Assembly (NCBI GenBank): GCA_014728225.1
Contig: WJLX01000002.1
Span: 1-33,398, forward strand
Source: Candidatus Coatesbacteria bacterium
GTDB taxonomy: Bacteria > RBG-13-66-14
Reading direction: 5' to 3'
Length of the DNA: 33,398 nucleotides
Part shown: positions 968 through 22,915 of the stretch, piece after piece
Layout of the letters: every line of letters starts with the position of its first letter
Position numbering within the stretch: position 1 is the first letter of the stretch
Made by a program: the position numbers and the translations under genes
The notes under the pieces: model-generated
Told to the model about the DNA's origin: nothing
Databases searched by the model: none
The model's input: only the letters and a program-made list of their open reading frames with translations

Positions 968-1153
968 GACCGTTGAAAAACACACTCCGCCGCCGACAGC
1001 GCCATCGCCCCGCCCGGAACTGGCACGGTTTTTGCGGAAGGCGCCACTGCGCCGCCGTTCGCTACGGCGCCGAGATGCAAAAACCGTGCCAGTTCCGGGG
1101 GCGCCGTATTTCACTGACCGTGACGCCGCGCCGGGACCCGTTTTTCAACGGTC
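968..1153 (+). repeat. Nested palindromic element, copy 1
   Basis: The outer arms are a perfect 14-bp inverted repeat (GACCGTTGAAAAAC at 968-981 with 1140-1153). The inner arms are a perfect 22-bp inverted repeat (1014-1035 with 1077-1098) built on GGAACTGGCACGGTTTTTGC. The inner arms enclose a 41-nt apical region that can pair GGCGCC with GGCGCC. Copies 2-5 carry GGAACCGG, so the T here and its A partner are a compensatory pair. The element lies between the lepA promoter and the lepA start repeats. Confidence 0.9.
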
Positions 1154-1281
1154 GGTACCGCAACCGTTGCGATCGTTGTCCGCCGAGCTCCGCGTCCCGA
1201 GCAGATAAGCAGCGCCGCACGGTTCAGCGCTATCCATAACACGGATTTGAACGGGCGGATGATCCGCCGCCCCACTGACCG

Positions 1282-1365
1282 ATGACGACCGAAATCAGCC
1301 GCAGCAGAAACTTCTCGCTCATCGCCCACGTCGACCACGGGCGGATGATCCGCCGCCCTTACTGA
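1282..1365 (+). CDS. Mini-ORF 1 copying the LepA N-terminus
   Basis: This 27-codon frame starts MTTEISRSRNFSLIAHVDHG, nearly LepA residues 1-20, and ends RMIRRPY before TGA. It is cut just before the P-loop lysine (GKS). The stop lies 3 nt before the next ATG, a layout that would allow reinitiation. There is no clear ribosome site and expression is unproven. Confidence 0.3.
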   Translation: MTTEISRSRNFSLIAHVDHGRMIRRPY

Positions 1366-1368
1366 CCG

Positions 1369-1452
1369 ATGGCGACCGAAATCAGCCGCGGCAGAAACTG
1401 CTCGCTCATCGCCCATCTCGACCACGGGCGGATGATCCGCCGCCCTTACTGA
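1369..1452 (+). CDS. Mini-ORF 2 copying the LepA N-terminus
   Basis: The second 27-codon copy begins MATEISRGRNCSLIAHLDHG and ends RMIRRPY then TGA, 3 nt before the next ATG. It differs from lepA mostly at amino-acid-changing positions (T2A, I8G, F11C, I13L, I17L), which argues against strong selection on the peptide itself. Confidence 0.3.
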   Translation: MATEISRGRNCSLIAHLDHGRMIRRPY

Positions 1453-1455
1453 CCG

Positions 1456-1539
1456 ATGGCGACCGAAATCAGCCGCAGCAGAAACTTCTCGATCATCGCC
1501 CATCTCGACCACGGGCGGATGATCCGCCGCCCTTATTGA
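1456..1539 (+). CDS. Mini-ORF 3 copying the LepA N-terminus
   Basis: The third 27-codon copy begins MATEISRSRNFSIIAHLDHG and ends RMIRRPY then TGA. The stop is 3 nt upstream of the lepA ATG at 1543, so ribosomes finishing here would be placed to reinitiate on lepA, which itself lacks a good Shine-Dalgarno sequence. Confidence 0.3.
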   Translation: MATEISRSRNFSIIAHLDHGRMIRRPY

Positions 1540-1542
1540 CCG

Positions 1543-3390
1543 ATGACGACCGAAATCAGCCGCATCAGAAACTTCTCGATCATCGCCCACATCGACCACG
1601 GGAAGAGTACCCTGGCCGATCGGATGCTCGAGCTCACCGGCACCGTCGACAAGCGCAAGATGCAGGAACAGGTCCTGGACACCATGGAGCTGGAGCGCGA
1701 GCGCGGCATCACCATCAAGGCCCAGAACGCCCGGATGAGCTTCACCGCCGCCGACGGGCGGACCTACGAGCTCAACCTGATCGATACCCCGGGCCACGTG
1801 GATTTCTCCTACGAGGTTTCGCGGGCTCTGGCGGCCTGCGAGGGCGTCCTCCTCGTCATCGACGCCACCCAGGGCGTCGAGGCCCAGACCGTGGCCAACA
1901 TGTACCTGGCCGCCGAGCACGACCTGGTGATCATCCCGGTCATCAACAAGATCGATCTGGACACCGCCCGACCGGAACACGCCGCCGAGGAGGCGCTGAG
2001 CCTGCTGGGCGACCCCGAATCCCCCTTCTTCTTCACCAGTGCCAAGACGGGCGAGGGCGTCGCCGGGCTGCTCCAGGCCGTCGTCGACCTCGTCCCGCAG
2101 CCGACGGGCGAGCTGGACGCCCCGCTGCGCGCCCTGGTCTACGACGCCTTCTACGATGACTACCTCGGGGTGATCACCGCCCTGCGCGTCGTCGACGGCG
2201 AGCTGTCCGAGGGCGACGAGATCGAGTTCCACGCTCACGGCGGGCGCTACACCGTCTCCGACGTCGGCTACTTCGCCGTGGATCGGCGCCACGTCGACAC
2301 CCTGACCGCCGGCGAGGTGGGTTACTTCACCGGTGCCGTCAAGGAGCTCGGTCAGGTACGCATCGGCGACACTCTGGTCCACGCGGGCCGGCGCGACAAG
2401 GTCCAGCGACTGCCCGGCTATGTCGAGCCGAAGCCCGTCGTCTTCTGCGGTCTCTACCCCACCGAAAACGATGACTACGACCTGCTGAAGAAGGCCCTGC
2501 AGAAGCTGGCCCTCAACGACGCCAGCTTCACCGCCGAGCCCGAGACCTCGGAGGCCTTGGGCTTCGGCTTCCGCTGCGGCTTCCTCGGCATGCTGCACAT
2601 GGAGATCGTCCAGGAGCGTCTGGAGCGCGAGTACGACCTGGACCTCGTCGCCACCACCCCCAACGTCATCTACCGTATCAGCACCGCCGACGGCGAGGTC
2701 CGCGAGGTCCAGTCCCCCGTCGAGATGCCCGACTTCGGCGAGGTCGAGCAGGTCGAGGAGCCCTACATCCGGGCCACCATCGTCACCCCGCCCACCTACA
2801 TCGGCAACATCATGAAGCTCTGCGAGGAGAAGCGGGGCGAGTACGGCTCGACGGAGTACCTGGACCCGGAGCGGGTGATGCTGGTCTTCGACCTGCCCCT
2901 GGCCGAGGTGGTCCTCGATTTCTACGACCGGTTGAAGAGCTGCACCCGGGGCTACGCCTCCTTCGACTACGACATCATCGGCTATCGGGCCAACGAACTC
3001 GACAAGCTCGAGCTGCTGGTCAACGGCCAGCCCGTCGACGCCCTTTCCGTGATTATCCACAAGGACAAGGCCTACCAGTACGGGCGCAACCTGTGCCTCA
3101 AGCTGCAGAAGCTCATCCCGCGCCAGCAGTTCGATGTCGCCGTCCAGGCCAAGCTCGGCGGGCGGATCATCGCCCGCGAGACCGTCAAGGCCCTGCGTAA
3201 GGACGTCACCTCGAAGTGCTACGGCGGCGACATCACCCGCAAGCGCAAGCTGCTGGAGAAGCAGAAGAAGGGCAAGCGGCGGATGAAGATGGTCGGCACC
3301 GTAGAGATCCCCCAGCGGGCCTTCATGAGCGTCCTGGGCGTCGAGGACGACCCCCACGAGATCAAGCAGAAGTACGGCAAGGGGCGCTAG
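1543..3390 (+). CDS. lepA: Elongation factor 4 (LepA), ribosomal back-translocase GTPase
   Basis: This 615-residue protein is the usual LepA length. LepA/EF4 is a membrane-associated translational GTPase that binds the ribosome and acts on stalled or misassembled states. The G1 motif AHIDHGKST is at residues 15-23. DTPGHVDFSYEVSR (G3) and NKIDLD (G4) follow, then the EF-G-like domains. The LepA-specific C-terminal domain is rich in Lys/Arg (RKRKLLEKQKKGKRRMK) and ends EIKQKYGKGR. The ATG at 1543 is chosen because the G domain begins directly after it and the in-frame TGA at 1537-1539 blocks any extension. There is no strong ribosome site. Instead three copies of its first 20 codons lie in tandem upstream, so initiation may depend on coupling or on leader structure. 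A hairpin terminator follows. Confidence 0.97.
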   Translation: MTTEISRIRNFSIIAHIDHGKSTLADRMLELTGTVDKRKMQEQVLDTMELERERGITIKAQNARMSFTAADGRTYELNLIDTPGHVDFSYEVSRALAACEGVLLVIDATQGVEAQTVANMYLAAEHDLVIIPVINKIDLDTARPEHAAEEALSLLGDPESPFFFTSAKTGEGVAGLLQAVVDLVPQPTGELDAPLRALVYDAFYDDYLGVITALRVVDGELSEGDEIEFHAHGGRYTVSDVGYFAVDRRHVDTLTAGEVGYFTGAVKELGQVRIGDTLVHAGRRDKVQRLPGYVEPKPVVFCGLYPTENDDYDLLKKALQKLALNDASFTAEPETSEALGFGFRCGFLGMLHMEIVQERLEREYDLDLVATTPNVIYRISTADGEVREVQSPVEMPDFGEVEQVEEPYIRATIVTPPTYIGNIMKLCEEKRGEYGSTEYLDPERVMLVFDLPLAEVVLDFYDRLKSCTRGYASFDYDIIGYRANELDKLELLVNGQPVDALSVIIHKDKAYQYGRNLCLKLQKLIPRQQFDVAVQAKLGGRIIARETVKALRKDVTSKCYGGDITRKRKLLEKQKKGKRRMKMVGTVEIPQRAFMSVLGVEDDPHEIKQKYGKGR

Positions 3391-3416
3391 GCGGGAACGC
3401 AGATGAGTAAACGCCG

Positions 3417-3440
3417 GGCGGGGTCGACGACCCCGCCTTT
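3417..3440 (+). terminator. Terminator of lepA
   Basis: A 9-bp stem (GGCGGGGTC with GACCCCGCC, loop GAC) lies 27 nt after the lepA stop and is followed by only three T. The stem is strong and the U-tract weak. Confidence 0.6.
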
Positions 3441-3699
3441 GCCTATCGCCCATGAGACTGTGCCGTCACTACAGCGGGTCGGTTGAACGGGCCGTGGATT
3501 GCCTAACCGACAACGGCGACGTTCTACGGGGGGACCTTACAGGCCCCCGTTCACGTCCAACTGCTGGCCAGTGGTCGACTGTGGGCGGGTGTCCGCCCAA
3601 CCACCACGGGCGGGGCGCTATACCTCCGCCCTCGCAGTTGCAAACGCTGCTGCTATCCGTGCGAAAATCCCCAGGTCCGCCGACGGCTCAGAGGTCTCA
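3441..3699. other. No recognisable gene
   Basis: No frame here reads as a convincing protein. The only structure seen is a hairpin pairing ACGGGGG (3526-3532) with CCCCCGT (3544-3550). Confidence 0.5.
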
Positions 3700-3999
3700 T
3701 CATCGCTTGTTCAGCAACCGCCGAGCAGCGGAGCCCCTGGCCGCCCATTCATCGATACGCTGTCTGGTTGTGGGTCTGTACGGCGGTGGTGGATAGGGAG
3801 GTTTTCTGGGCGGGTTCGGGGGCTCGTCATCATGCGCCTTCGACTTCTCCACCCCTGAAACAATGAATAGCGCGAAGACAAAGCCCCTGACACCGAAAGC
3901 AAATGCAGGGCCGCCGCCGCAGAGGAAGATAACTCCACCCAGAGCCCCGCCAACGATTAGACCGCTGAGGAATCTCTTCAGGTTTCTCGCGCAGCTATC
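3700..3999 (-). pseudogene. Relic of a small membrane protein with a Pro-rich tail
   Basis: Reading the minus strand to a double TGA at 3697-3702 gives about 98 codons with protein-like composition. A glycine/hydrophobic stretch (LIVGGALGGVIFLCGGG, then FVFALFIVSG) looks like two membrane segments. It is followed by a Pro-rich part (PPNPPRKPPYPPPPYRP) and a basic helix ending RRLLNKR. No start codon lies between the upstream in-frame TGA and the hydrophobic part. A hydrophobic start, MILLIIIPAMM, exists just upstream in another frame, so a frameshifted 5' end is possible. Function unknown. Confidence 0.3.
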
Positions 4000-4299
4000 T
4001 CATCATTGCGGGGATAATTATTAGAAGTATCATGGAACGTGTTAGGGCCAAATCAGACTGATTGGGCTCGAGCCGCTGGGCTGTTATTGACTCCCTAAAT
4101 GCGCCTTTTAGAAACGAGTGTTTATTTAGCATGCCCTTATTGCTTGTTAGGGATCATCACAGAAGATGAACACAGAAGATGAACATCAGCTATAGTAGTT
4201 GGGTTCTTCCCGCGGCGTGAACGGGTCTGTCAGCCCGCCACCGGCGCGACGGGCAATGTGGCGGGGAAGAGCGGGTCGGGGGAGCGGCACGCCAACCGT
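4000..4299. other. No gene seen
   Basis: This lower-G+C stretch contains a short direct duplication (ACAGAAGATGAAC repeated around 4158-4183). No coding signal was found. It may be the flank of the transposase relic that follows. Confidence 0.4.
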
Positions 4300-4975
4300 C
4301 CCGGCTGCGACAACCGCTATCACTACGACTGCGCCGACGGGCGGCCTCAGTGCGAGCGTCGCGGCAAGCCGTTCAAGTGTCGTCGCCGGGGCGTCGCAAC
4401 GAGCCGCCGGAAAAACGCGGCGAGATAGCCCGTCTGTTCCGGCTCGGCGTCTCGACCGTCCGAGCCGCCGCTCGCCAGGCCGAGCTGGAAAAGCTCGAAG
4501 GGCGCATGCTGTAAGCACAACGAAGTCGATGAGTCCTACTTTGGCGACCACGGCAGGGCAAACGTGGCCGGGGGGCCGGCGGCAAGACCCCCGTTTTCGG
4601 GCTGCTCAAGCGCGGTGGCCAGGTTCGGGTAATCCTGCCGCCCAACTGCAGCGAGAAGCGCCTGCTGGGCGCGATCCTGGAGAACGTCGAGCTGGACTCG
4701 AGCGTCTACTACGACGGTTTGAAGGTCTGTAACTGGCCGTCGCTCAATGGATTACACCACAAGCGCATCAATCATGACAAGACCCCGCTCAATGGCAAAG
4801 TGCATATCAAGGGCCTCGAGAGCTTCCGGGGCCGCGCCTGACGCCGCCTAAAAGCCGACCGCGGCGGCTTCAAGCGCAACTGCAGACTCTTTATCAAAGA
4901 GGGGGCATTCTGATTTAACAATCGCGACGACGAAAACGCGCTCAACCACCTCGGGAGCATACTTCGCACTTGTTG
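4300..4975 (+). mobile_element. IS1595-type transposase relic (copy A)
   Basis: The remnant is spread over several frames. It has a zinc-ribbon-like start (CDNRYHYDCADG), a helix-turn-helix-like part (EIARLFRLGVSTVRAAARQA), VDESYFG with the first catalytic Asp, and then KRGRGAGGKTPVFGLLKRGG. VYYDGLK carries the second catalytic Asp, followed by HIKGLESFRG and FNNRDDENALNHL. This block order is that of IS1595/ISXO2-like DDE transposases. Frameshifts near 4390 and 4550, stops near 4512, 4841 and 4912, and K for the usual N in HINGxESF show it is dead. Terminal repeats were not identified. A more deleted relative lies at 32281. Confidence 0.75.
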
Positions 4976-5170
4976 ATAATCCGGTGATAATCCCTGAACT
5001 TTAAACCATTATCGGCTACAGACGATGGTCGTCAACCGTAGTAAGCGGCTTGACTGGTTTTGAGAGGACCTTAACTGCTGAAGACTGCTGCTGCCTTACT
5101 GCTGCTGCCGTAAGACGGACTGCCCGAATAAGACCCGGCGACTGTGAGTGGTCGCCCGTAAATATACCCA
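4976..5170. other. No gene seen
   Basis: The stretch between the transposase relic and the prenyltransferase holds short repeats (GATAATCC twice around 4975-4991; CTGCTGC near 5085-5107) but no credible reading frame. Confidence 0.4.
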
Positions 5171-5195
5171 GGGCGGGGGGCTAATCCCCCCGCTC
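5171..5195 (-). terminator. Hairpin downstream of the prenyltransferase gene
   Basis: A 10-bp stem (one G-U) pairs 5171-5180 with 5186-5195 around the loop CTAAT, about 55 nt past the stop of the minus-strand gene. There is no clear U-tract, so it could be a terminator or only a 3'-end stabiliser. Confidence 0.35.
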
Positions 5196-5250
5196 CACGG
5201 TTATATGTCCATGCCTGTATGGCTATTGATGACTCCCGTCCCCGGCGGCG

Positions 5251-6270
5251 TCACGGGTATTTCAGCCGGAACTTCTTGCGGTAGTAGTAGCGCGTCAGGC
5301 AGATCACCAGGCCGAGGAAGAGCAGGAACCAGGGGTGGAGCACCCCGGCGGCGACGGCGTAGAGCAATGTCGTACCCTGGTAGGCCAGCTTGACGTGTTT
5401 ACGCTTGCCCCAGAGGGCGACGACGAAGAGGGGCAGGCAGACGACCCCGGCGACGAGGGCCGGTCGGTTGAGCCGGAGCAGTGCGGCGGTGACGCTGCCG
5501 GCCTGCAGGGTCAGGGCCAGCCAGCGGGTGAGGGCGGGGCCGCAGGTCACGGCGGTGGTGCGCTCGCCGGATTCCCGGTCGCCGGCGATGTCGACGACGG
5601 TGGTCAGGGCGAAGACGGCGCCCACGGCCAGCATGTAGGGCAGGGCGGTCAGCCAGAAGTCGGGCTGGAACTCGTGGACGATGACGTAGCCGATGGCGAC
5701 GTTGAAAAAACCGTTGCCGAAGGCGTTGGCGGCTATGTCGAGCAACGGTTTGCCCTTGAGCTTGACCGGCGGGGTGTTGTAGGCGAAACCCAGGGCGATC
5801 GAGGCGGCGACGATCCAGAGGTAGTCCCAGTCGGCGAAGTACAGGGCGCTCGCCAGGGCCAGGGCCTGGAGGATTATCTGGTAGGTCCAGGCGGCCCGGC
5901 GGGAGATGTAACCGTCGCAGACCAGGAACAGCTTACGGTTGCGGCGGTCGGTCTCGGCGTCATTGAGCTGGTTGTTGACGTAGATCCCGCCGACCAGCAG
6001 GGTGTAGGCGACGAAGCCGATCAGCAGATCGAGATCGGGCAGCAGTTGCTCGGTCCAGCGGTAGACCCCGGCGGATTGGAGGCCGTGGTAGTGGCCCAGC
6101 AGCAAGAACAGCCAGACGGGGATCAGGATCATCGGCCGCAGCAGGAAGAAGTAATCCAGCAGGGCGAACCAGCGCGGCAGGCCGAGGCCGCGGTTGGTCT
6201 TGGGCCGCTCGAAGGGCACCTCGCCATCGCCGTAGAGCGGTTGGCGGTCTGGTGGTTCGGGGATGCTCAT
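5251..6270 (-). CDS. UbiA-family prenyltransferase
   Basis: This 339-residue integral membrane protein belongs to the family that transfers polyprenyl groups to aromatic or other acceptors inside the membrane. The first Asp-rich motif is NQLNDAETD (N100, D104, D108) and the second is DIAGDRESGERTT (D227, D231). These bind Mg2+ and the prenyl diphosphate. Between and after them lie about eight or nine hydrophobic segments, and the C-terminus is basic (RYYYRKKFRLKYP). The ATG at 6270 was preferred; a GTG six codons upstream is also open and neither has a clear ribosome site. No quinone, heme or archaeal-type lipid genes lie beside it, so the acceptor cannot be named. The gene stands alone between degraded regions. 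Confidence 0.85.
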   Translation of the reverse strand: MSIPEPPDRQPLYGDGEVPFERPKTNRGLGLPRWFALLDYFFLLRPMILIPVWLFLLLGHYHGLQSAGVYRWTEQLLPDLDLLIGFVAYTLLVGGIYVNNQLNDAETDRRNRKLFLVCDGYISRRAAWTYQIILQALALASALYFADWDYLWIVAASIALGFAYNTPPVKLKGKPLLDIAANAFGNGFFNVAIGYVIVHEFQPDFWLTALPYMLAVGAVFALTTVVDIAGDRESGERTTAVTCGPALTRWLALTLQAGSVTAALLRLNRPALVAGVVCLPLFVVALWGKRKHVKLAYQGTTLLYAVAAGVLHPWFLLFLGLVICLTRYYYRKKFRLKYP

Positions 6271-6330
6271 CGGGGGCGATGATAGCACAGTCGGCCGGTC
6301 TCGGGGAGGGCGGATGTTCGTCCCGGGTAC

Positions 6331-6466
6331 GACGCCGCTATTGATGCGGTCCTCGTCGAGGAGCGGGAGCGGGTAGCCGGCGTGGAGATTGAACCCGGGT
6401 CCGGTCCGGGGCTGCCGGGTGAGTCAAACGGCGGACGGAGCATGCAGAAGGCGTCGGTCTGGCGCT
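6331..6466 (-). pseudogene. Decayed fragment of the outer-membrane protein gene at 8333
   Basis: About 135 bp align almost without gaps to roughly 8358-8500 of the intact gene. Shared blocks include GGTCCTCGTCG, TAGCCGGCGTGGA, GGGGCTGCC and GAAGG.GTCGGT. A 1-nt deletion near 6430 breaks the frame. Only the region encoding the last third of the protein (TWQPLVWLGFNVHAGYSF in the intact gene) is recognisable. The fragment lies 2 kb from its parent in the same orientation, so it is a remnant of a duplication. Confidence 0.7.
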
Positions 6467-6589
6467 GGATCGGTTAGCGCTGGTGTCTGTCACTCGAAGC
6501 GAGCTGAAGCCTTGAAACCTTTGGTGAGTTGCGATGCGGACGGCGTACATCGCTGTTCCAGCAGATTCGGCTAACAAGCAGGGGGCTTG

Positions 6590-6595
6590 TATAAT
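6590..6595 (+). promoter_or_regulatory. Promoter -10 for the trp leader
   Basis: A perfect TATAAT lies 15 nt upstream of the leader-peptide ATG at 6611. No good -35 is visible at 16-18 bp spacing. Transcription would start near 6602, leaving a very short 5' end before the leader peptide. Confidence 0.45.
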
Positions 6596-6610
6596 GAAAC
6601 CGCTTCTGCT

Positions 6611-6712
6611 ATGCTTTCGGCACTCATGACGCGACAATCCGACAGCTTCGTCTTGGGCGCCCGGCGCTGGTGGACCGTGAAACCGGTCGACCCGCGCATC
6701 GTCACGCCCTGA
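6611..6712 (+). CDS. trp leader peptide with tandem Trp codons
   Basis: This is a 33-codon frame (28 codons from the second ATG at 6626). Its interior reads GARRWWTVKPVDP, with two adjacent TGG codons at 6668-6673, and it ends at TGA 6710-6712. Trp is rare, so a WW pair in a short peptide just upstream of terminators and a tryptophan synthase gene is the classic sign of ribosome-mediated attenuation. The WWTxxP pattern recalls known trp leader peptides. No Shine-Dalgarno sequence is visible. With the -10 at 6590 the message would begin about 9 nt before the ATG, so translation may be nearly leaderless. Confidence 0.75.
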   Translation: MLSALMTRQSDSFVLGARRWWTVKPVDPRIVTP

Positions 6713-6741
6713 CGCAGCATCCAGAGCGCTGAGAGCAACGA

Positions 6742-6766
6742 GGTCGGCCCCGGGCCGGCCTTTTTT
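6742..6766 (+). terminator. Attenuator terminator 1 before trpB2
   Basis: A GC stem (GGTCGGC with GCCGGCC around CCCGG) is followed directly by TTTTTT at 6761-6766. It begins 30 nt after the leader-peptide stop. Confidence 0.85.
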
Positions 6767-6780
6767 GCACCCCCCGGCCC
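6752..6780 (+). promoter_or_regulatory. Candidate antiterminator pairing
   Basis: GGGCCGG (6752-6758, from the 3' arm of terminator 1) can pair perfectly with CCGGCCC (6774-6780, from the 5' arm of terminator 2). This pairing excludes both terminators at once, giving a plausible read-through state. Confidence 0.5.
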
Positions 6781-6801
6781 TGCAATGGTGCCGGGTTTTT
6801 T
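6773..6801 (+). terminator. Attenuator terminator 2 before trpB2
   Basis: A 6-bp stem (CCCGGC with GCCGGG) with an 11-nt loop is followed by TTTTTT at 6796-6801. It ends 41 nt before the trpB2 ATG, so most initiated transcripts must pass two terminators to reach the gene. Confidence 0.75.
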
Positions 6802-6842
6802 CTTACCATCCGTCACCCATAAAACCGAAGGAGAGCGAACCG

Positions 6843-8207: not shown

Positions 8208-8233
8208 CCGGCTCGACTAAGAACGATAAACGA

Positions 8234-8267
8234 GAGCGGGACGACCGTGGTCACAGTCGTCCCGCTC
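8234..8267. terminator. Hairpin between convergent genes
   Basis: A perfect 12-bp stem (GAGCGGGACGAC with GTCGTCCCGCTC) and 10-nt loop lies between the ends of trpB2 and the convergent minus-strand gene. Neither side has a proper U-tract. It probably ends or protects both transcripts. Confidence 0.55.
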
Positions 8268-9056: not shown

Positions 9057-9256
9057 AGCGCTGAAAAACAGCGCCCTCGCCGCCGGACGCCGCCGGCGGC
9101 TCGACGGCTCGGAACCGGCACGGTTTTTGCGGAGGCGGACCGTTGCCGCCGCTCCAACGGGCGCCGAGATGCAAAAACCGTGCCGGTTCCGAGCCGGGGT
9201 GGTCGGCTACCCAGTTCAGCCGTGGGCTGGTGGCTTGGGCGCTGTTTCTCAGCGCT
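9057..9256 (+). repeat. Nested palindromic element, copy 2
   Basis: The outer arms are 19 bp (9057-9075 with 9238-9256; AGCGCTGAAAAACAGCGCC, one G-U). The inner arms are a perfect 25 bp (9106-9130 with 9171-9195; core GGAACCGGCACGGTTTTTGC). The apical stem CCGTTG/CAACGG lies inside the 40-nt loop. The element sits between tRNA-Gly and the outer-membrane protein gene, both on the minus strand. Confidence 0.9.
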
Positions 9257-9414: not shown

Positions 9415-9486
9415 AGCGGGGTACCGGGATCGAACCGGTGACGTTCAGCTTGGGAAGCTGACATTCTACCACTGAATTAACCCCGC
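9415..9486 (-). tRNA. tRNA-Gly (CCC)
   Basis: The minus strand folds as a 72-nt tRNA. The acceptor stem is GCGGGGT/ACCCCGC with discriminator T, as usual for Gly. The D-arm is short (TTCAGTGGTAGAA). The anticodon loop TTCCCAA sits on the stem TCAGC/GCTGA, and the T-arm holds GGTTCGATCC. CCA is not encoded (CAA follows). Confidence 0.95.
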
Positions 9487-9550
9487 TCGGGAAGCAGGAT
9501 ATTAGCATCCGCACCGCCGGCTGTCCAGTCGTCAGCCGACGTTGTCAACG

Positions 9551-9635
9551 GCGGTTCGTTAGCGGTTCGTTAGCGGTTCGGTTGTGGTTCGGTTGTGGTT
9601 CGGTTGTGGTTCGGTTGCGGTTCGGTTGCGGTTCG
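9551..9635. repeat. 11-nt tandem repeat, about 7.7 copies
   Basis: The unit GCGGTTCGTTA (first two copies) drifts to GTGGTTCGGTT and then GCGGTTCGGTT, all at exactly 11-nt spacing. It is non-coding. It lies between tRNA-Gly and the promoter of the envelope locus. Confidence 0.95.
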
Positions 9636-9675
9636 TCCGGCGGTCTGTGCCCGGCTCCGGAAGGCTGCAAAAACC

Positions 9676-14197: not shown

Positions 14198-14293
14198 ACC
14201 CTCTCGCCCGACGTACCCGGCGCGGCCGCGCCGACAGCTATTCCCCGGGGGTGGCCGACCACGCCGCCCCCGAACACTACCGCCCCGCCGCGG

Positions 14294-14484
14294 CCGCCGT
14301 TGAAAAACAGCCACCGGAGGCTTACACTACAATCAACAACGCAACGGCGGAACCGGCACGGTTTTTGCGGAGGCGGCACGTCGAGCGCCGCGGCGACGGG
14401 CGCCGAGATGCAAAAACCGTGCCGGTTCCGCCGGGCCCCGGGGGGTGACGGCGCGCGGTCGGCGGGGCTGTTTTTCAACGGCGG
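14294..14484 (+). repeat. Nested palindromic element, copy 3
   Basis: The outer arms are a perfect 19 bp (14294-14312 with 14466-14484; CCGCCGTTGAAAAACAGCC). The inner arms are a perfect 24 bp (14345-14368 with 14410-14433). The apical stem is CGTCG/CGACG. The element lies between two tandem CsgG paralogues. The remaining 190 nt up to the next gene shows no further feature. Confidence 0.9.
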
Positions 14485-14677
14485 TCCGCAGAGCGCCCGC
14501 TCGACCTCGACCCTGGGCGGCTCAAGCTCGGCCGTGCAACAGACAACGCTCTGCCGGAGTTGTCCGCTTCGAACCGCCGTAAGTGGAGTGAGCCACCGAG
14601 GGGTACCGCTGCGTTGCTGTTCCGCGATGTCAGATAAGTGAGCAACCAACGACCCTTACGACTGACCCGCAGGTGCG

Positions 14678-15655: not shown

Positions 15656-16532
15656 AACGCTACCCGCCGTCGGCCTGGCGCTGATGAGCGCCTGTCTGCC
15701 CGTCGACGGGGAAGGCTCGCACCTCGAGCGTCGGCTGGTGGTCGACGTGCGGTCGCGGGAGCCCGAGAACGAGGTCTGGGCCCGCGGCCTGGAGGAGCTG
15801 GCGGTTGCCGAGCTGGCCGAGCTGCCCAGCCTGGAGCCCCTGGGAACGGACTCCCTGCTGGCCGCGGCCGGCGGCCTGGCCGCTTTGCCGACGGAGACCG
15901 CGGACCCGGCCTCGACGGCCCCGCCCGTGTTGGTCGTCGGCGAGGAGCTCCACGGCCTGGATGTCCAGCTTTACCTGCTCGGTGAGTTACGCCGCTTCGC
16001 AGTCGGTGTCGACGAGCCCGGCGGCGCGTCCTCGATCCAGGGCTTCGCCACCCAAACCGCCGTGGCCGAGCTGCGTTTGCGGCTCTACCTGATGGGCACC
16101 GGCGAGCTGCTGGCCCAGAGCGACTACACCGCCGAGTTGACCGTCAGCGGCATCGAGCGCCACCGCCCCGGCGAGCCGATCGGCGACGACGCGACCTTCA
16201 CCGCCACCCTCGAGGGTCGGGCCCTGACCGCGGCCGCCGAGGGCGCCGTCGGCAGGTTGGTGCGCGAGATCGCCCGCGCCCCCTGGAACGGCTTCATCGA
16301 CGACTTGACCGCCGACGGCGGCGTCATCCTGCCCCTGGGCTACCGTGACGGCGCCGCTCCGGGCGATGTGTTCATCGTCTACGAGCCCGGCGCCGAACGC
16401 GGCCGGCGGGGCAACCGGGTCGGCAGCGTGCGCCTCGAGGCCCCCGGAAGCGACGAATCCTACGCCCCGCCCTTGTCCGGCGGCGGCTTCAAGCCCGGCT
16501 ACCTGGTCATCCAGGAACTCAAATCCCGCTGA
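15639..16532 (+). CDS. Divergent CsgG-related lipoprotein
   Basis: This 297-residue protein's ATG lies 17 nt inside the preceding gene, so translation is probably coupled. The frame stays open further upstream, but that part is a shadow of the neighbour. The N-terminus MFRPAKTLPAVGLALMSAC gives a likely lipid-modified Cys19. The core is weakly CsgG-like (VDVRSREPENEVWARGLEEL, TQTAVAELRLRLYLMGTGEL). The C-terminal part (APWNGFIDDLTADGGVILPL ... GDVFIVYEPG ... SGGGFKPGYLVIQE) is a diverged version of the domain shared by the two genes before it, without GEELIDP. Probably an accessory subunit of the same complex. Confidence 0.75.
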   Translation: MFRPAKTLPAVGLALMSACLPVDGEGSHLERRLVVDVRSREPENEVWARGLEELAVAELAELPSLEPLGTDSLLAAAGGLAALPTETADPASTAPPVLVVGEELHGLDVQLYLLGELRRFAVGVDEPGGASSIQGFATQTAVAELRLRLYLMGTGELLAQSDYTAELTVSGIERHRPGEPIGDDATFTATLEGRALTAAAEGAVGRLVREIARAPWNGFIDDLTADGGVILPLGYRDGAAPGDVFIVYEPGAERGRRGNRVGSVRLEAPGSDESYAPPLSGGGFKPGYLVIQELKSR

Positions 16533-16657
16533 CCGGCGTCAAGCGTTATCCCGGCCTCGCGAACCGCGGTTCGAAGTCATGGAAATCTCAACCCCTTCTT
16601 GACTAACCGACAGACCCGCCTCAGACCGCCGGCGCCGCCGGGGGAGGAGGATTACCG

Positions 16658-17533
16658 ATGAAGAAAACCGTTCTGTTACTGCTGCTGCTCCTGGCCCTGA
16701 CCGCCCTGGCCGACGCCGAGGTGACCTACCTCGTCGGCAGCGTCAGCTACTACCGCGGCGGCTCAAGCCATACGGCGAGCCTGAACACCGAGCTCAACAA
16801 CGGCGACGTGGTCATGACCGGCGCCCGCTCCCGGGTCGAGGTGACCTTTGGCGACGGTTCCCTGGTCCGGTTGGGCTCCAACGCCCAGTTGACCATCGAA
16901 CGTTCGTCCTCGGGCGGGCTGGGCGAGGCCACCGTGGTCAGTTGCTCCGGCGGCCGCGTCTGGAGCAACGTCACCCCCTTCACCAGCTCGGACTCCGGCT
17001 ACGCCGTCAAGACCCCGACGGCCACCGCCGCCGTGCGCGGGACCGTCTTCCGCGCCGACATCTACCCCGACGAGTCCACCCTGCTGCGCGTATACACCGG
17101 CAGCGTCGAGCTCTGGAACCCCATGGCCGCCCTCGAGGGACCCCACTTCTGGGAGACCGAGAGCGCCGAGGGCTCCGGCGGCACTGGTCGCCACGAGGTC
17201 GTCGGACCCCACGAAGTCTCCGGACCCGTCGAGGTCTCCGAGGAGGAGTGGGAGCAGCTGCTGCTGGAGAAGATGACCCAGATCTATATCGGCGGCGACG
17301 GCGCCGTCGGCGAGTCCGGCGAGTTCACCCTCCAGGAGGAGGCCGACGACCAGTGGGTCGCCTGGAACATCGAGCGCGACGCCGAGCTCGGTCTGGAGCG
17401 CGTCGAGGGCTCTGGGGCCTTCGACGATTCCACTGACGATTCCACTGACGATGACACAGATGATGCCGATGATTCCCCGGGCGAGAGCGACGCCGACGGT
17501 AGCAAAGCCCTCAACAACGGCGACGGTATGTAG
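16658..17533 (+). CDS. Secreted FecR-domain protein with acidic tail
   Basis: This 291-residue protein has a strong GGAGGAGG ribosome site and a Leu-rich signal peptide (1-20). A FecR-type domain lies at about 22-150 (GSVSYYRGGSS, LNNGDVVMTGARSRVEVTF, DGSLVRLGSNAQLTI, TPTATAAVRGTVFRADI, VYTGSVEL). This domain, often outside the sigma-regulator context, occurs in secreted ligand-binding or surface proteins. The last 40 residues are Asp-rich, with a 12-nt repeat encoding DDST DDST DDDT, which could bind Ca2+. It lies 125 nt after the CsgG-related genes and is followed by a strong terminator, so it probably ends the locus. Confidence 0.85.
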   Translation: MKKTVLLLLLLLALTALADAEVTYLVGSVSYYRGGSSHTASLNTELNNGDVVMTGARSRVEVTFGDGSLVRLGSNAQLTIERSSSGGLGEATVVSCSGGRVWSNVTPFTSSDSGYAVKTPTATAAVRGTVFRADIYPDESTLLRVYTGSVELWNPMAALEGPHFWETESAEGSGGTGRHEVVGPHEVSGPVEVSEEEWEQLLLEKMTQIYIGGDGAVGESGEFTLQEEADDQWVAWNIERDAELGLERVEGSGAFDDSTDDSTDDDTDDADDSPGESDADGSKALNNGDGM

Positions 17534-17557
17534 CCCGCGCGGCAAGACATTTCTGCG

Positions 17558-17585
17558 AACGGCGCCGGGAGACCGGCGCCGTTTT
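17558..17585 (+). terminator. Terminator of the envelope locus
   Basis: A 9-bp stem (CGGCGCCGG with CCGGCGCCG), loop GAGA, followed by TTTTC and a further TTT. It lies 25 nt after the FecR gene. A-A before the stem also pairs with T-T after it, so the signal is partly bidirectional. Confidence 0.9.
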
Positions 17586-17633
17586 CTTTGTATCAGTACT
17601 GTGGACGGCGTTACCGTCGCGCGGACTGCGCCG

Positions 17634-18467
17634 TCACTGCCACAGCCTTCGGCGACGCCGGGCTGCCCGGCGGGCGCAGCGGCGCAGCAGCTCAGCCGTG
17701 TGGCCCTCTCGTCCGGGGCCGTCGAGCAGCGGTGGGCCGTGGCCCGTGGCCAACACCCGGGGCTCCAGCTCGGCCAGAACGGCGAGGGTTTCCATCGCCC
17801 GCCGCTGGTCCCGGTTGGTGTACGGCGCCGGCGGCGAGACCCGCGCCCGGTTCGGTCGCAAGAAAGCCGCCGTCAGGCCGACGAGGGACCCGGCGTCGAC
17901 GGTCAGGACGGCGTCGCCGGCCAGCAGCACCCCGTCGTCGGCGCGCCGGAAGACCAACTGCCCCGGAGTGTGACCCGGCGCGGCGACAGCGGTCCAGCCG
18001 GGCATCCCCGGCACGCCGCCGGGTTTGAGGGGCCGGGCGCAATTCGCCAGGCTTTGTTCGGCCAGGATAGCTGAGACCTTCTCCTGCGACAGCCTCCGCA
18101 TGATGGGCAGGACGATCCAGTGGTCCAGCGGAATGGCGAAACGCTCCAGCGTCGCCAGGTCTTCGGCGATGGCCAGGGGCAGCTCGGGCTCCGGCACGTA
18201 GACCGGGCAGCCCCAGCTCCGGGCCAGCTCCGGTGCCGCTCCCGCGTGATCCGGATGGACGTGGGTCAGCAGGATGGCGGCGGGCGGAGTGTCGGAACCG
18301 CAGAGCCCGTCGGCGGCGCGCTTGATGGCCCCGGCGTTCCCGGCGACGGAGGTGTCGATCAGCGCCCAGTTCATACCCGAACGGACGAAGTAGACGTTGC
18401 CCGCCAACAGGCCGCAGGACAGCCAGTGCACGCCGGGGGCGATTTCTCTGGGCTTCGGGTTAAGCAT
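17634..18467 (-). CDS. Metallo-beta-lactamase-fold hydrolase
   Basis: This is a 277-residue protein from the chosen start (MLNPKPREIAPGVHWL); an upstream ATG at 18524 adds 19 residues without domain content. The metal motif THVHPDHAG (H69, H71, D73, H74) is followed by GHTPGQL, GDAVLT and GHGPP, the layout of glyoxalase-II-like and LACTB2-like hydrolases that cleave thioesters or nucleic acids through two zinc ions. A Cys-poor, soluble protein with an Arg-rich C-terminus (RRCARRAARRRRR). The substrate cannot be told. It is convergent with the FecR gene and downstream of the helicase, with palindrome copy 4 between. Confidence 0.85.
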   Translation of the reverse strand: MLNPKPREIAPGVHWLSCGLLAGNVYFVRSGMNWALIDTSVAGNAGAIKRAADGLCGSDTPPAAILLTHVHPDHAGAAPELARSWGCPVYVPEPELPLAIAEDLATLERFAIPLDHWIVLPIMRRLSQEKVSAILAEQSLANCARPLKPGGVPGMPGWTAVAAPGHTPGQLVFRRADDGVLLAGDAVLTVDAGSLVGLTAAFLRPNRARVSPPAPYTNRDQRRAMETLAVLAELEPRVLATGHGPPLLDGPGREGHTAELLRRCARRAARRRRRLWQ

Positions 18468-18730
18468 TGTTCTCACCCGAGCGCTTCCTGGTCGGCTGAC
18501 AGACAACGGCAGCGGATGATTCATGCGAGATAGTTCCAGCGTCTTGTAACAGAGCCGGAAGGCTTATCAGCGTTACTAGACGCCAGATAACAGCCCGGGT
18601 TGTTTGATGCGCCCGATGGAGACAATTCCCGTGCTGAGTCGCGGCTGCTCAATAATCTGTTAACGGCGGTCCGGCAGACCGAGACTCGCAAGTCCTCGTC
18701 CGCCGGGCGTGTAGCGCTGGACGGGTAAGC
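18468..18730. other. Intergenic stretch, nothing recognised
   Basis: Between the hydrolase start and palindrome copy 4 no gene, promoter or repeat was identified with confidence. Confidence 0.4.
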
Positions 18731-18916
18731 TCCGCCGGCGAGACCCGTCGAGACACCCTGCGGCACGGACCTGGTTCAAGCGGAACCGGCACGGTTTTTG
18801 CGGAGGCGGCACGTTGAGCGCCGCGGCAACGGACGCCGAGATGCAAAAACCGTGCCGGTTCCGCGGCGCCGGGAGTGGTATTGCGCTGAACGACGGCTAA
18901 CGGGTCTCGCCGGCGG
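18731..18916 (+). repeat. Nested palindromic element, copy 4 (overlaps helicase 3' end)
   Basis: The inner arms are a perfect 22 bp (18780-18801 with 18843-18864). The apical stem CGTTG/CAACG is a compensatory variant of copy 3. The outer arms (TCCGCCGGCGAGACCCG, 18731-18747 with 18900-18916) are unrelated to those of other copies. The right arm encodes the last codons of the helicase (SAGETR), so coding sequence has been copied into the left arm. Confidence 0.85.
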
Positions 18917-21335
18917 ACTGGTCACCCCGGGCCAGGATGGTCAAGGCCGCCTGCTTGCGTCGGGGGACGGGGATCACCCTGCCGCTGGGGCCGACGGTTT
19001 CCAGCGCCGGGCCGATGCAAGAGGGGCAGCCGTGGCTGCAGGGGCACTCGGCCACCCGCTGGCGCGCCCCCTCCCAGAGCTGGGCGTGCAGGGCGTAGAG
19101 TTTTTCCGAGAAGCCGATACCGCCGGGGTAGTTGTCGTAGAGGAACAGTTGGGGCTGAAACTCCTCGCCGACGGACTCGGCGAAGGGGTCGCCGGCGGAC
19201 CAGAGGTTCTTCAGCGGCTCGCCCTCGCGCTCGGCGCCCAGGGCGGTGCCCAGATCGCGCACCTCGCACATCAAGACGAAGGCCGCCAGGTTGTGCAGGG
19301 CGTACTTGGCCCCGTAGAGTCCGGCGACGAGTTCGGCTTTGTTGTAGTCCAGCCCGGCGAGGAAGCCGCCGTCGAGCCGGGCCCAGTAAGCCGTGGTCGA
19401 CATCTCGCGCTCGGGCAGTTCGACCTCGCCGTAGCCGACGTTCTCCTGGGTGTAGTAGCGGATCTTCTTGAAGCCGACGACCTTGTTGGCGACGTGGACC
19501 TCGCCGTAGTGGGGGCGGGCGGGGGTCGGCGGGCCCTCGTCGAAGATGTCGAGGACGTGGACCGCCGTCTTGTCCTCGGCGTCGGTGTAGTAATCGAAGT
19601 CGCCGCGACGGACGTAGGCCTTGCGGTTGTCGAAGTCCAGCTCCTCGACCTGGTACTGGACGCCGTCGTGGACGTAGACGGCCTTGGGAAAGATGTGGTA
19701 GAAGGCGCCGGAGTAATCGATCTCGCCGATGACCCGGGGGCGGTTGATGCCGGAGCGCTCCAGGCGTTCGTCGAAAGTCTCCCCCGAAGCGCCGCTGCCC
19801 ATGGCGGGGCGTCCGGCTCGTTCGACGATGACGAAGTTGTCCCGGGTCAGCGAACGCAGGGAGACCTCCTGGGCCGGGTAGGCGTCGGCCATCCAGTACC
19901 AGCGGTCCTCGGCCCGGTGGACCAGCTCGCCCTCCTCGAGCAGCTCGAGAATCTCCTCCAGGTTCTCCCCGCCGAAGGTCTCGCCCTCGGCGAAGGGCAT
20001 CTCGAAACAGGCGCACTTGACGTGCTCGAGCAGGATCAGCAGGTTGTCGGCGTTGATGCGGGCGTGCTCGGGGGACTGTTCGAAGAGGAATTCGGGGTGC
20101 TGGGCGACGTACTGGTCCAGGGGCAGGTTGCGGGCCAAATAGACGGCCACGGAGCTGCCCGAGCGCCGTCCGGCGCGTCCGGCCTGCTGCCAGGTGCTGG
20201 CCACGGAGCCGGGGTAGCCGGAGATAATGCAGCAGTCGAGCTTGCCGATGTCGATACCCAGCTCGAGGGCGTTGGTGGAGACCACGCCGCGAACGCTGCC
20301 GTCGCGCAGGCCGCGTTCGATCTCCCGGCGCATCCGCGGCAGGTAGCCGCCGCGGTAGCCGCGGACCCAGCCCCGGCGGTCCGGCGAGCGCTCGACGACG
20401 TCCTTGAGGTAGCGCACCAGGACCTCGGTGTTGATGCGCGAGGTGGCGAAGACGATGGTCTGGACGTCGGCCTCGAGGAACTTGGCCGCCAGCCGGCGGG
20501 CGTGCATGATGTAGGACTCGCGCATCCCGGTGTTGGCCTGGACGATGGGGGGGTTGTAGAGCAGGAAGTGTTTCTCGGCCGTCGGCGCGCCGGATTGATC
20601 GACCAGCTCGACGGGCTCGTCGAGCAAGGCTTCGGCCAGCTCGCGGGGGTTGGCGATCGTCGCCGAGCAGAGGATGAAAACGGGGTCCGCGCCGTAGAAG
20701 CGGGCCACGCGCCGCAGGCGCCGCAGGACATTGGCCATGTGGCTGCCGAAGACCCCGCGGTAGGTGTGCAGCTCGTCGATGACCACGTACTTGAGGTGCT
20801 CGAACAGGGACAGCCATTTGGTGTGGTGGGGCAGGATACCGGCGTGGAGCATGTCGGGGTTGCTGACGATGACGTTGCCCGAGCGGCGGATCTTGCGCCG
20901 CACGTCGGCCGGGGTGTCGCCGTCGTAGGTGTTGGCGGTGATCGCCGGGTCGAGCTTCTCGGCCAGCTTGGCCAGCTCGACCATCTGGTCCATCCCAAGG
21001 GCCTTGGTGGGAAAGAGGTACAGGGCGCGGCTGTCCGGATCGCGCAGCACGGCGTCGAGGACGGGCAGGTTGTAGCACAGCGTCTTGCCCGAGGCCGTCG
21101 GCGTCTGGATGACGACGTTTTCGCCGGCGCCGATCAACTCGATCGCCTCGCGCTGGTGGGTGTAGAGGCGCTCGATGCCCGTGGCGCGGATGACCTCGAC
21201 CAAACGGGGGTGGAGGAAGTCGGGAAAGTCGGCGTACTGGGCCGTCCGCGGCGGCAGCACCCGCCAGTGGGTGATGCTCTCGCGGTAGGGCGGCCGCTTG
21301 AGCGACGCCAGGACGCTGTCGATGCCTTTGGCCAT
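18897..21335 (-). CDS. mrfA: MrfA/YprA-type DEAD-box helicase (DUF1998)
   Basis: This is an 812-residue superfamily 2 helicase. Walker A TPTASGKT is at about 78-85, motif II DELH at 187-190, SAT at about 225, and motif VI QQAGRAGR later. The C-terminal zinc-binding part has CPCSHGCPSC at about 763-774, the four-Cys DUF1998 signature. In Bacillus subtilis MrfA (YprA) is a 3'-5' helicase that with the exonuclease MrfB repairs mitomycin-type DNA damage. Hrq1 and RecQ4-like enzymes are the eukaryotic relatives. The start MAKGIDSV was chosen; 54 further codons to 21497 are low-complexity and overlap a hairpin. A MrfB-like gene lies on the same strand at 26845. Its last codons overlap palindromic element copy 4. 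Confidence 0.9.
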   Translation of the reverse strand: MAKGIDSVLASLKRPPYRESITHWRVLPPRTAQYADFPDFLHPRLVEVIRATGIERLYTHQREAIELIGAGENVVIQTPTASGKTLCYNLPVLDAVLRDPDSRALYLFPTKALGMDQMVELAKLAEKLDPAITANTYDGDTPADVRRKIRRSGNVIVSNPDMLHAGILPHHTKWLSLFEHLKYVVIDELHTYRGVFGSHMANVLRRLRRVARFYGADPVFILCSATIANPRELAEALLDEPVELVDQSGAPTAEKHFLLYNPPIVQANTGMRESYIMHARRLAAKFLEADVQTIVFATSRINTEVLVRYLKDVVERSPDRRGWVRGYRGGYLPRMRREIERGLRDGSVRGVVSTNALELGIDIGKLDCCIISGYPGSVASTWQQAGRAGRRSGSSVAVYLARNLPLDQYVAQHPEFLFEQSPEHARINADNLLILLEHVKCACFEMPFAEGETFGGENLEEILELLEEGELVHRAEDRWYWMADAYPAQEVSLRSLTRDNFVIVERAGRPAMGSGASGETFDERLERSGINRPRVIGEIDYSGAFYHIFPKAVYVHDGVQYQVEELDFDNRKAYVRRGDFDYYTDAEDKTAVHVLDIFDEGPPTPARPHYGEVHVANKVVGFKKIRYYTQENVGYGEVELPEREMSTTAYWARLDGGFLAGLDYNKAELVAGLYGAKYALHNLAAFVLMCEVRDLGTALGAEREGEPLKNLWSAGDPFAESVGEEFQPQLFLYDNYPGGIGFSEKLYALHAQLWEGARQRVAECPCSHGCPSCIGPALETVGPSGRVIPVPRRKQAALTILARGDQSAGETR

Positions 21336-21440
21336 GCTGCTTCGCCTGGATGGGGGGTTGGTTTGGGACTCAAGGGTCGTTGGCCCGGAGACGGGCGTTC
21401 CGCCGGAGCTCGGCCGTCTATCAGCTTCGCCGCCCAGCCC

Positions 21441-21513
21441 GGCGCCGTCACGCTTCTTGCATTCCGCGGTTTTCGCCAGGGCGAAAACCGCGGGCAAGAA
21501 GCCCGCCGGCGCC
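21441..21513. repeat. Long intergenic hairpin upstream of the helicase
   Basis: CCGCGGTTTTCGCC (21464-21477) pairs perfectly with 21480-21493 over a 2-nt gap. GCTTCTTGC/GCAAGAAGC (21452-21460 with 21494-21502) continues the stem with a 3-nt bulge (ATT). GGCGCC ends can close it. It is unrelated in sequence to the nested palindromes and there is no U-tract. Confidence 0.75.
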
Positions 21514-21528
21514 TCGCCGAGTCGCCGG

Positions 21529-22599
21529 TCAGGCGTCGCCGGCGCGTTTGAGGATCGTCCAGACCAGCAGGGTCAGCCAGCGCGAGGGCCGGCGCTTCTG
21601 GACGAACTCCCAGCCCGACCAATTGACCAGGTCGTCGCCGACGACCTGGCCCGCGGGGAACTCCTCGTCGCCTTTGGGTTGTTTGGAGCTGCGGCCGTCG
21701 GGGTTCCATTTGAGCCAGACGGATTCGGCCTTGACGCGACCGTCGGTGTCCCGCTTACTCCGCAGATGGTCGAGGAGCTCGGCGAAGGCCGTTTCGTAGC
21801 GGCAGCGGGGGAAGCGGCTGAGGACGTCGGCGAAGTGGACGATATCGTACCAGATTCGCGGGGCCTTGGGGCGGCCGAAGGTGGTGCCGATACCGAAGAG
21901 GTAGTGTTTGCGTCCGGTCCGGCGCTCGCTCCAGTGCTGGAGCAGACAGTCGATCAGCCGGTCGGCGGCGGCGCTCTCGCGCAGCTCCGGCAGGGCCGAG
22001 AACAGACGCAGGGTTATCAGCGAGGCGTAGGGGCAGGGCTCGTCGCGCTTGCCGGGGCCGTTGAACTCGGGGCCGTGGGTCGGATCGGCATAGCAGGGGC
22101 TGCCGTAGTCTTCCTGGCGCGAGAGGATGTAATCGACACTGCGGCGGACGCGATCGTCGTTGCCCAGGCCCAGCTTGACCAGGGCGTAGCTGATCAGCGG
22201 GGCGTCGGTGGCGAACCACGTCCAGCGCTCGCGACCGTCGCCGCCGAAGGCTCTGGGCAAGCTGCTGCGCACCTGGAAGGGGCCCTCGCGCGACTGGTGG
22301 GCCAGGATGGTATCGATCGCGGGTTGCAGCCTCGCGGCGGGCACGCCGATCTCGGCCAGGAAGACCAGCTTGTGCAGCGGATGGGCGGCGTTGTTGTGGT
22401 TCTTGATCGGCGGCTGCTCCTCCCAGGCGTTGACCTCGTCGATCAGGCCGGCGACGAGGGGTTCCGTGGTCAACGCGGCCCGTAGCGCGTAGGCATCCCT
22501 GACGGTGACCACGGCGGGCAGCAGGTCCTCGAGCGCCCGGTAGCGCACGAAGGCCGGGCCCTTCATCAACCAGTCGGCGGTCTTGAGCGGCAGGTCCAT
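21529..22599 (-). CDS. Prenyltransferase/terpenoid-cyclase-like (alpha/alpha-toroid) protein
   Basis: This 356-residue soluble protein has no signal peptide. Helical repeats resemble the alpha/alpha toroid of squalene-cyclase and prenyltransferase repeats: AIDTILAHQSREGPFQVRS, ISYALVKLGLGNDDRVRRS, VDYILSRQEDYGSPCY and YASLITLRLFSALPEL. The classic DxDD cyclase motif was not found, so catalysis is doubtful. Conserved-looking WYDIVHF and WLKWNPDG blocks lie near the C-terminus. The start MDLPLKTADW was preferred because GGAGG lies 11 nt upstream, inside the longer ATG frame at 22617. Function unknown; it may read as a member of a hypothetical family found with many bacterial redox or DNA-repair genes. 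Confidence 0.6.
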   Translation of the reverse strand: MDLPLKTADWLMKGPAFVRYRALEDLLPAVVTVRDAYALRAALTTEPLVAGLIDEVNAWEEQPPIKNHNNAAHPLHKLVFLAEIGVPAARLQPAIDTILAHQSREGPFQVRSSLPRAFGGDGRERWTWFATDAPLISYALVKLGLGNDDRVRRSVDYILSRQEDYGSPCYADPTHGPEFNGPGKRDEPCPYASLITLRLFSALPELRESAAADRLIDCLLQHWSERRTGRKHYLFGIGTTFGRPKAPRIWYDIVHFADVLSRFPRCRYETAFAELLDHLRSKRDTDGRVKAESVWLKWNPDGRSSKQPKGDEEFPAGQVVGDDLVNWSGWEFVQKRRPSRWLTLLVWTILKRAGDA

Positions 22600-22724
22600 G
22601 GTCGGCGTTTCCTCCATCAGACGGGCTCTGTCGGGCCCGTTTCAGCGGGATTGTGCGTGCCGAGCTTACGCGGCCGCGAGCCGTTATCCGGTTGGGCGTT
22701 CGGCCCCGCCGCCGTCATGGAGCG

Positions 22725-22915
22725 GCCGGACCTTTGAAAAACAGGACGAACCGGGAACGTTTGAAGACCGCGGTCGGAACCGGCACGGTTTTTGCGGAGT
22801 TGACACCGCCGGGTTGTTGTCAGGTTCAGCGAGATGCAAAAACTGTGCCGGTTCCGGGGTGCGGAGGTCGTTGACGGTGCCGGGCCGCCGGGCGCCTGTT
22901 TTTCAAAGGTCCGGC
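22725..22915 (+). repeat. Nested palindromic element, copy 5
   Basis: The outer arms are a perfect 21 bp (22725-22745 with 22895-22915; containing CCTTTGAAAAACAGG). The inner arms are 21 bp with one G-U (22775-22795 with 22836-22856). The apical stem is TGACA/TGTCA, unlike the other copies in sequence but equal in place. It lies between the comF end and the toroid-like gene start. About 120 nt on the gene side shows nothing else. Confidence 0.9.

Follow-up and report, generated by a model that had tools for sequence, protein, structure and literature searches.

Five long nested palindromes lie within the 33,398 nt of DNA analysed here (the window: contig C2 of G000, an uncultured Candidatus Coatesbacteria genome of 2.96 Mb in 181 contigs), raising the question of what kind of element they represent and what they might do beside the genes they adjoin. 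All five occur where the preliminary description had placed them, with inner arms of 20–26 nt, a loop of 40–41 nt and outer arms specific to each copy (Table 1). The palindrome family it proposed is real, far beyond chance, but is much larger than the five copies then counted: approximately 250 copies of a ~190-bp palindrome occur in G000, where 249 paired arms fit a general arm pattern (control 0) and the 14-mer inner-arm core GCAAAAACNGTGCC has 265 and 269 matches on the two strands (reversed control 0). Family members made up 92 of the 106 perfect inverted repeats in the 370 kb searched (arm ≥14, loop ≤230). A covariance model and a search of relatives, as the same description had suggested, extended the family to a second genus, represented by Candidatus Coatesbacteria MAG Bin_537 (WJMB01, here G001), which belongs to the same taxonomic family and shares a median protein identity of 68% with G000. 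At least 155 pattern pairs were detected in G001, along with 126 covariance-model matches, some on both strands of a single site. Genome G006 yielded 15 weak covariance-model matches and two pattern pairs, G002 yielded one pattern pair, and the general arm pattern was absent from every genome outside this taxonomic family among the 386 searched.

All detected copies were intergenic and scattered among ordinary genes, one per ~7–11 kb, and regular chromosomal spacing was not seen in G000 (CV 0.79). Many contigs end within an element (e.g. C3:78823, C16:17, C17:28207, C21:14515, C94:1 and C23:1 in G000), implying that MAG assembly breaks at the palindromes and that the true copy number is somewhat higher. 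The copies themselves are not assembly artefacts, a concern raised at the outset, because in the second MAG the same orthologous gene pairs enclose elements whose arm sequences are different. The element statistics that follow cover 26% of G000 and 18% of G001, and a motif-free hairpin search supplied 96 and 67 elements, respectively.

Table 1. Palindromic elements and predicted sigma-54 boxes in the window.
Feature	Position	Strand	Details
Copy 1, whole element	961..1160	.	Outer arms 961-981 / 1140-1160; inner arms 1014-1035 / 1077-1098
Copy 1, outer-arm core CCGACCGTTGAAAAAC	966-981 / 1140-1155		
Copy 1, left inner arm, predicted sigma-54 box GGCACGGTTTTTGC	1022..1035	+	From sequence; points right
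Copy 1, right inner arm, predicted sigma-54 box GGCACGGTTTTTGC	1077..1090	-	From sequence; points left
Copy 2, whole element	9057..9256	.	Outer arms 9057-9086 / 9227-9256; inner arms 9109-9130 / 9171-9192
Copy 2, left predicted sigma-54 box	9117..9130	+	
Copy 2, right predicted sigma-54 box	9171..9184	-	
Copy 3, whole element	14292..14486	.	Outer arms 14292-14312 / 14466-14486; inner arms 14347-14368 / 14410-14431; element also between orthologous genes in G001 (C101:2510-2580)
Copy 3, left predicted sigma-54 box	14355..14368	+	
Copy 3, right predicted sigma-54 box	14410..14423	-	
Copy 4, whole element	18731..18917	.	Outer arms 18731-18748 / 18900-18917; inner arms 18780-18801 / 18843-18864; right outer arm overlaps 3' codons of helicase gene (18897-21497); element also between orthologous genes in G001 (C346:9254-9318)
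Copy 4, left predicted sigma-54 box	18788..18801	+	
Copy 4, right predicted sigma-54 box	18843..18856	-	
Copy 5, whole element	22725..22915	.	Outer arms 22725-22745 / 22895-22915; inner arms 22774-22795 / 22836-22857
Copy 5, left predicted sigma-54 box	22782..22795	+	
Copy 5, right predicted sigma-54 box, variant GGCACAGTTTTTGC	22836..22849	-	Consensus R kept at the varied position
Family B hairpin, related	21447..21507	.	GTCACGCTTCTTGC / GCAAGAAGCCCGCC around a 14-bp perfect hairpin; degenerate boxes

Other repeats were observed in and beyond the window. Family B hairpins, in which degenerate sigma-54-like boxes (GGCGCG/GTCACG..TTNTTGC) surround a copy-specific perfect hairpin of 12–14 bp, were also present at C4:5266, C4:22196, C12:157, C12:12250, C16:5426 and C17:1450 in G000, and a rough count gives about 30 in 760 kb. 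At 1251-1602 of the window, 87-bp tandem repeats directly precede lepA (1543) and duplicate its 5' end, each unit encoding MTTEISR-like residues with a stop at the end, and an 11-bp tandem repeat (GGTTCGGTTGT) at 9542-9646 separates a tRNA gene (9415-9486) from the gene that follows. A nested palindrome at L046:13957-14093 (core CCGGAACCGGCACGGTTCCGG) looks like the element minus its central part, with outer arms retained.

From the outside inwards, the element consists of an outer arm of 18–21 bp, an unpaired spacer of ~30–35 nt, an inner arm of at least 22 nt and the centre. Loop length was 40–41 nt in 88/95 copies from G000 and 42–44 nt in 51/68 from G001, and the median distance between outer arms was 152 in both genera. 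Outer arms were 97% Watson-Crick within a copy, and paired with their own partner in 88/94 (G000) and 54/65 (G001) cases, versus 65/746 (9%) and 16/510 when swapped between copies. Pairing was 97.5% in register and fell to 28–46% when the arms were slid. The compensatory arm changes noted earlier were borne out, as 17 of 28 pairs had changed on both sides, compared with 5.3 in shuffles (0/500 reached 17), while the apical stems noted with them turned out to be only loosely paired. The accompanying notion that structure rather than sequence is conserved suits the outer arms but not the inner arm, where the sequence of a predicted sigma-54 box is kept across genera. Two accounts of this anatomy were rejected: the outer spacers are not a decayed palindrome, since the two spacers of a copy show no more pairing than spacers swapped between copies, and the core is not an insertion into a pre-existing outer palindrome, as there was no population of empty outer palindromes.

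The inner arm has the sequence of a predicted sigma-54 (RpoN) promoter, an identity overlooked in the preliminary description. Its box reads GGCACR-N4-TTGC, with GG at -24 and GC at -12, and GG-N10-GC fell in a single register in the inner arms of 93/96 elements from G000 and 67/67 from G001 (160/163). The G000 form is [C/T]GGCACG-GTTT-TTGC and the G001 form TTGGCACG-TTTC-TTGC; GGCAC and TTGC are ~98–100% conserved in both genera, the base after GGCAC is R in both, and only N4 (GTTT versus TTTC) and the bases directly upstream of the box differ between them. The -26 T of the TGGCACR consensus is present in part (C/T in G000, T in G001). Directly after TTGC, one arm has A and the opposite arm G in 91/95 (G000) and 51/68 (G001) elements, an apparently conserved asymmetry. 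The box matches ChIP-supported sigma-54 sites in Salmonella such as TGGCACGGTTGTTGC at rpoH, the site at gltI being TGGCACGTCTATTGC (PMC3844500). RpoN is encoded in both genomes (E 1e-56 in G000), each of which also has ~8–10 Sigma54_activat matches, the few weak ones probably being of Lon/Clp type. Because both inner arms carry the box, every element appears to present two predicted sigma-54 promoters face to face, ~40–43 bp apart, with predicted starts in the central loop.

Outside the detected elements the box is used singly, and was intergenic in 27/27 cases (control patterns, 0–5 hits each); these 27 include contig-end halves, family B hairpins and ordinary promoters. Ordinary single sigma-54 sites at C3:59517 in G000 and C80:4231 in G001 precede what we take, from the sequences, to be a sigma-factor gene (by 114 nt) and an Hsp20 gene (by 102 nt), which suggests a sigma-54-linked stress response in Coatesbacteria.

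We assessed how the outer arms are placed relative to the boxes. In both genera the outer-arm motif favours positions ~37 and ~48 nt away from the inner arm. The two spacers of a copy were shifted in register by 6–16, or about one helical turn, in 53/54 G001 copies, whereas reshuffled spacers would put 24.7 copies within a shift of 5 (p 1e-4). Shifts in G000 clustered near 0 and near 8–10, and the best period in pooled data was 10.75 bp (p 2e-4). Enhancer-type sites for sigma-54 would be expected to show helical phasing, and these distances point to proteins on duplex DNA. The outer arms are not, however, a single activator motif, as GACC or GAAAA is common to only about half of them. Read on the outward strand, both spacers are richer in G than in C (skew 0.20 and 0.24) and in T than in A, with both skews dropping to ~0.05 a few bases outside the outer arms. 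Outward transcription would be expected to leave such a skew, stopping at the outer arms; transcription-linked strand bias would give it, and selection on composition could too. Several copies look terminator-like by eye, and intrinsic terminators at the outer-arm T-tract were considered and rejected, as the hairpins ahead of the tract did not exceed their shuffled counterparts in strength (-6.1 versus -5.6); the T-tract is also mostly missing in G001.

Elements lie nearer to gene 3' ends (median 97 nt to the box) than to gene starts (170–191), and in G000 they are depleted between divergent genes. No gene-sense orientation was found in either genus: the A-side promoter points against the gene in 42 cases and with it in 20 in G000 (p 0.007), a bias that was not replicated in G001 (17 versus 14). 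Genes flanked by an element in one genus tend to be flanked in the other. On the 3' side, 8 genes were flanked in both G000 and G001, 9 and 17 in one only and 72 in neither, and on the 5' side the corresponding numbers were 7, 8 and 12, and 80, all from G001 contigs chosen for holding elements. Eleven element pairs (10 distinct G001 elements) adjoin orthologous genes, and four of the 11, including window copies 3 and 4, stand between two orthologous neighbours. The arms of all 11 shared-site pairs have changed to the genus type, and in most of these elements, albeit not in every one, the two outer arms still match each other. The many sites unshared between genera indicate that gain and loss also happen.

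The boxes, the fixed inner spacing, the fixed ~152-bp outer-arm distance, the phasing and the intergenic placement can be read directly from the DNA. The same is true of the strictly Watson-Crick match between the arms of each copy, of the orthologous positions occupied in both genera and of the outward skew, which does not extend past the element. On these grounds, we consider it probable that each copy belongs to a dispersed set of twin sigma-54 promoter elements, partly conserved in position, whose physiological role we infer as follows. Two RpoN-type promoters would face each other across a 40–43-bp centre, each side bearing an inverted-repeat arm of 18–21 bp whose distance follows the helical turn of the DNA. 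RNA polymerase-sigma-54 would bind both boxes and an enhancer-binding or other bridging protein the outer arms, ~60–90 bp upstream of each start. On activation, short transcripts would run outward both ways from starts in the central loop and, because the elements are close to gene 3' ends, could act as convergent or antisense transcription; alternatively, stalled closed complexes could act as roadblocks. Hairpin-templated correction of quasi-palindromes is well established, and such correction at the DNA level during replication may keep the arms identical.

Several findings count against this twin-promoter reading. N4 is nearly uniform within each genome while ordinary sigma-54 promoters vary in it, so something beyond sigma-54 homogenises the arms. 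About half of the outer arms are without GACC/GAAAA, which is odd for an activator site; the 3'-end proximity and the depletion between divergent genes in G000 are unlike ordinary promoters; and there are no intrinsic terminators at the outer arms. A broader proposal is that the palindromes constitute an undescribed class of chromosomal element, with twin facing sigma-54 promoters numbering in the hundreds in each genome and enhancer arms that are copy-specific, internally identical and helix-phased, forming a genome-wide switch that would bring about convergent or antisense transcription at gene ends upon activation by an enhancer-binding protein and that palindrome self-correction would have maintained across the divergence of genera. 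We put this forward tentatively, as a conjecture with a fair amount in its favour that could well prove wrong.

The same boxes could instead serve with little transcription, as a sponge or roadblock, in which ~500 of them hold RNA polymerase-sigma-54 closed complexes and so titrate sigma-54 or insulate the 3' ends of genes. Even when no activator is present, the sigma-54 holoenzyme forms closed complexes that are stable (PMC3844500). Twin facing boxes would also interfere with each other, and both the proximity to gene 3' ends and the many short-spaced facing boxes in phages fit such a role. We nevertheless regard it as rather unlikely, given that the outward skew suggests transcription and that a sponge would work without phased outer arms or palindromy.

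It is also unlikely, somewhat more so, that the palindromes are a non-autonomous mobile repeat (MITE/REP-like) amplified independently in the two genera, with the sigma-54 boxes as cargo or a secondary resemblance and the near-uniform arms reflecting recent spread from a master copy. The presence in each genome of ~250 cores that are nearly uniform and follow a consensus particular to the genus, the exclusively intergenic and irregularly spaced copies and the many unshared sites would all follow from such spread. However, the same sites are occupied in two genera despite their protein divergence, and helical phasing is left unaccounted for. Mobilisation by a RAYT/Y1 transposase, as envisaged earlier, is disfavoured further: Y1_Tnp had no match in G000 or G001 (it was found in 10/15 genomes searched), no arm stood alone inside any contig of the 0.76 + 0.53 Mb examined, so that there are no separated arms around a transposase, and, apart from the outer-arm consensus, no two copies resembled each other over 70 nt of flank. 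Moreover, the outermost arms differ between copies, unlike the conserved terminal inverted repeats of a MITE.

How the arms vary bears on the remaining readings. Ratios of G-U to A-C mismatches were 14:11 and 11:4 in the outer arms and 2:1 and 6:4 in the inner arms, and compensatory changes go from Watson-Crick to Watson-Crick with one-sided G-U changes almost absent. Single transitions yield G-U or A-C equally if only DNA complementarity counts, whereas selection on RNA favours G-U; pairing is thus kept at the DNA level rather than the RNA level. Arm identity without sequence identity, by Watson-Crick pairs only, would likewise suit a DNA cruciform or ssDNA hairpin target (attC-like) with arms selected for extrusion, an earlier suggestion that may still hold for arm maintenance but is improbable as the element's role, as it predicts neither sigma-54 boxes nor one-turn phasing of inner and outer arms, and the copies are scattered between ordinary genes in no cassette array. 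The structured RNA also suggested earlier, here a nested palindrome folding in read-through transcripts as an mRNA 3'-end hairpin, has large predicted hairpins (-130 to -170 kcal/mol), strong covariation and a position near gene 3' ends in its favour, but is very improbable, given that G-U is not favoured over A-C and changes pass almost without G-U intermediates, that only tRNA reached the gathering threshold in an Rfam covariance-model search and no family matched the element, that the A-side strand is not gene-sense, that helical phasing is a property of duplex DNA, that the spacers are unpaired, and that hairpins preceding the T-tract do not surpass shuffled ones in strength.

In the open-access literature we found no description of Coatesbacteria palindromes, nested extragenic palindromes or convergent or palindromic sigma-54 sites, and nothing matching on sigma-54 in MITE/REP elements or on phage sigma-54 decoys. 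As far as that literature goes, the design of the repeat, with facing predicted sigma-54 promoters within helix-placed matching arms, is new, and no described element known to us has this anatomy. A sigma-54 promoter normally stands alone as the switch of a specific gene. If the twin-promoter reading is true, most long palindromes here would be twin sigma-54 sites positioned by the turn of the helix at gene ends, and sigma-54 would act as a global architectural or antisense system. The element also offers a clean natural test of palindrome upkeep, as its arms change together, by Watson-Crick pairs only and with no RNA signature.

Among known systems, the element resembles the sigma-54 -24/-12 promoter in its GG-N10-GC spacing, TGGCACR/TTGC consensus and intergenic location, in the presence of genes for RpoN and activators, and in upstream sites at a helically constrained distance. 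It differs in that its boxes are always two, facing and inside nested palindromes, with ~250 elements per genome placed near gene 3' ends rather than starts and a near-uniform N4. REP/BIME, ERIC and other bacterial extragenic palindromes are likewise short, dispersed, intergenic and palindromic with a genus-specific consensus, but the element has no RAYT gene and differs from REP/BIME and ERIC in having outer arms that no other copy shares, arms phased by the helix, sigma-54 boxes and positions partly conserved between genera. Integron attC sites share nested imperfect palindromes and a structure that outlasts sequence; in the element, by contrast, the conserved part is an inner arm with a promoter box, the arms pair almost perfectly and the copies are scattered outside any cassette array. 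Two facing TGGCACR-N4-TTGC boxes also occur in phages. Viral contigs contain short-spaced facing palindromes (TGGCACRNNNNTTGC-N3..8-GCAANNNNYGTGCCA), often in tandem or ~93 bp apart, in at least 120 stretches, versus 1 for a scrambled half-site and 35 in back-to-back order (L119:3661-3779, L216:418-596, L218:55-227 and at least ~80 other loci), with R at the sixth position even though the search pattern left it free; they were absent from the 290 bacterial genomes tested. These differ from the element in their centre of 3–8 bp (37–45 in the element), their frequent tandem arrangement and the lack of noticed outer arms. They are possibly phage sigma-54 decoys or promoters and constitute a separate phenomenon, yet they speak for the facing of sigma-54 boxes as an arrangement that occurs naturally and suggest that it has been reached more than once.
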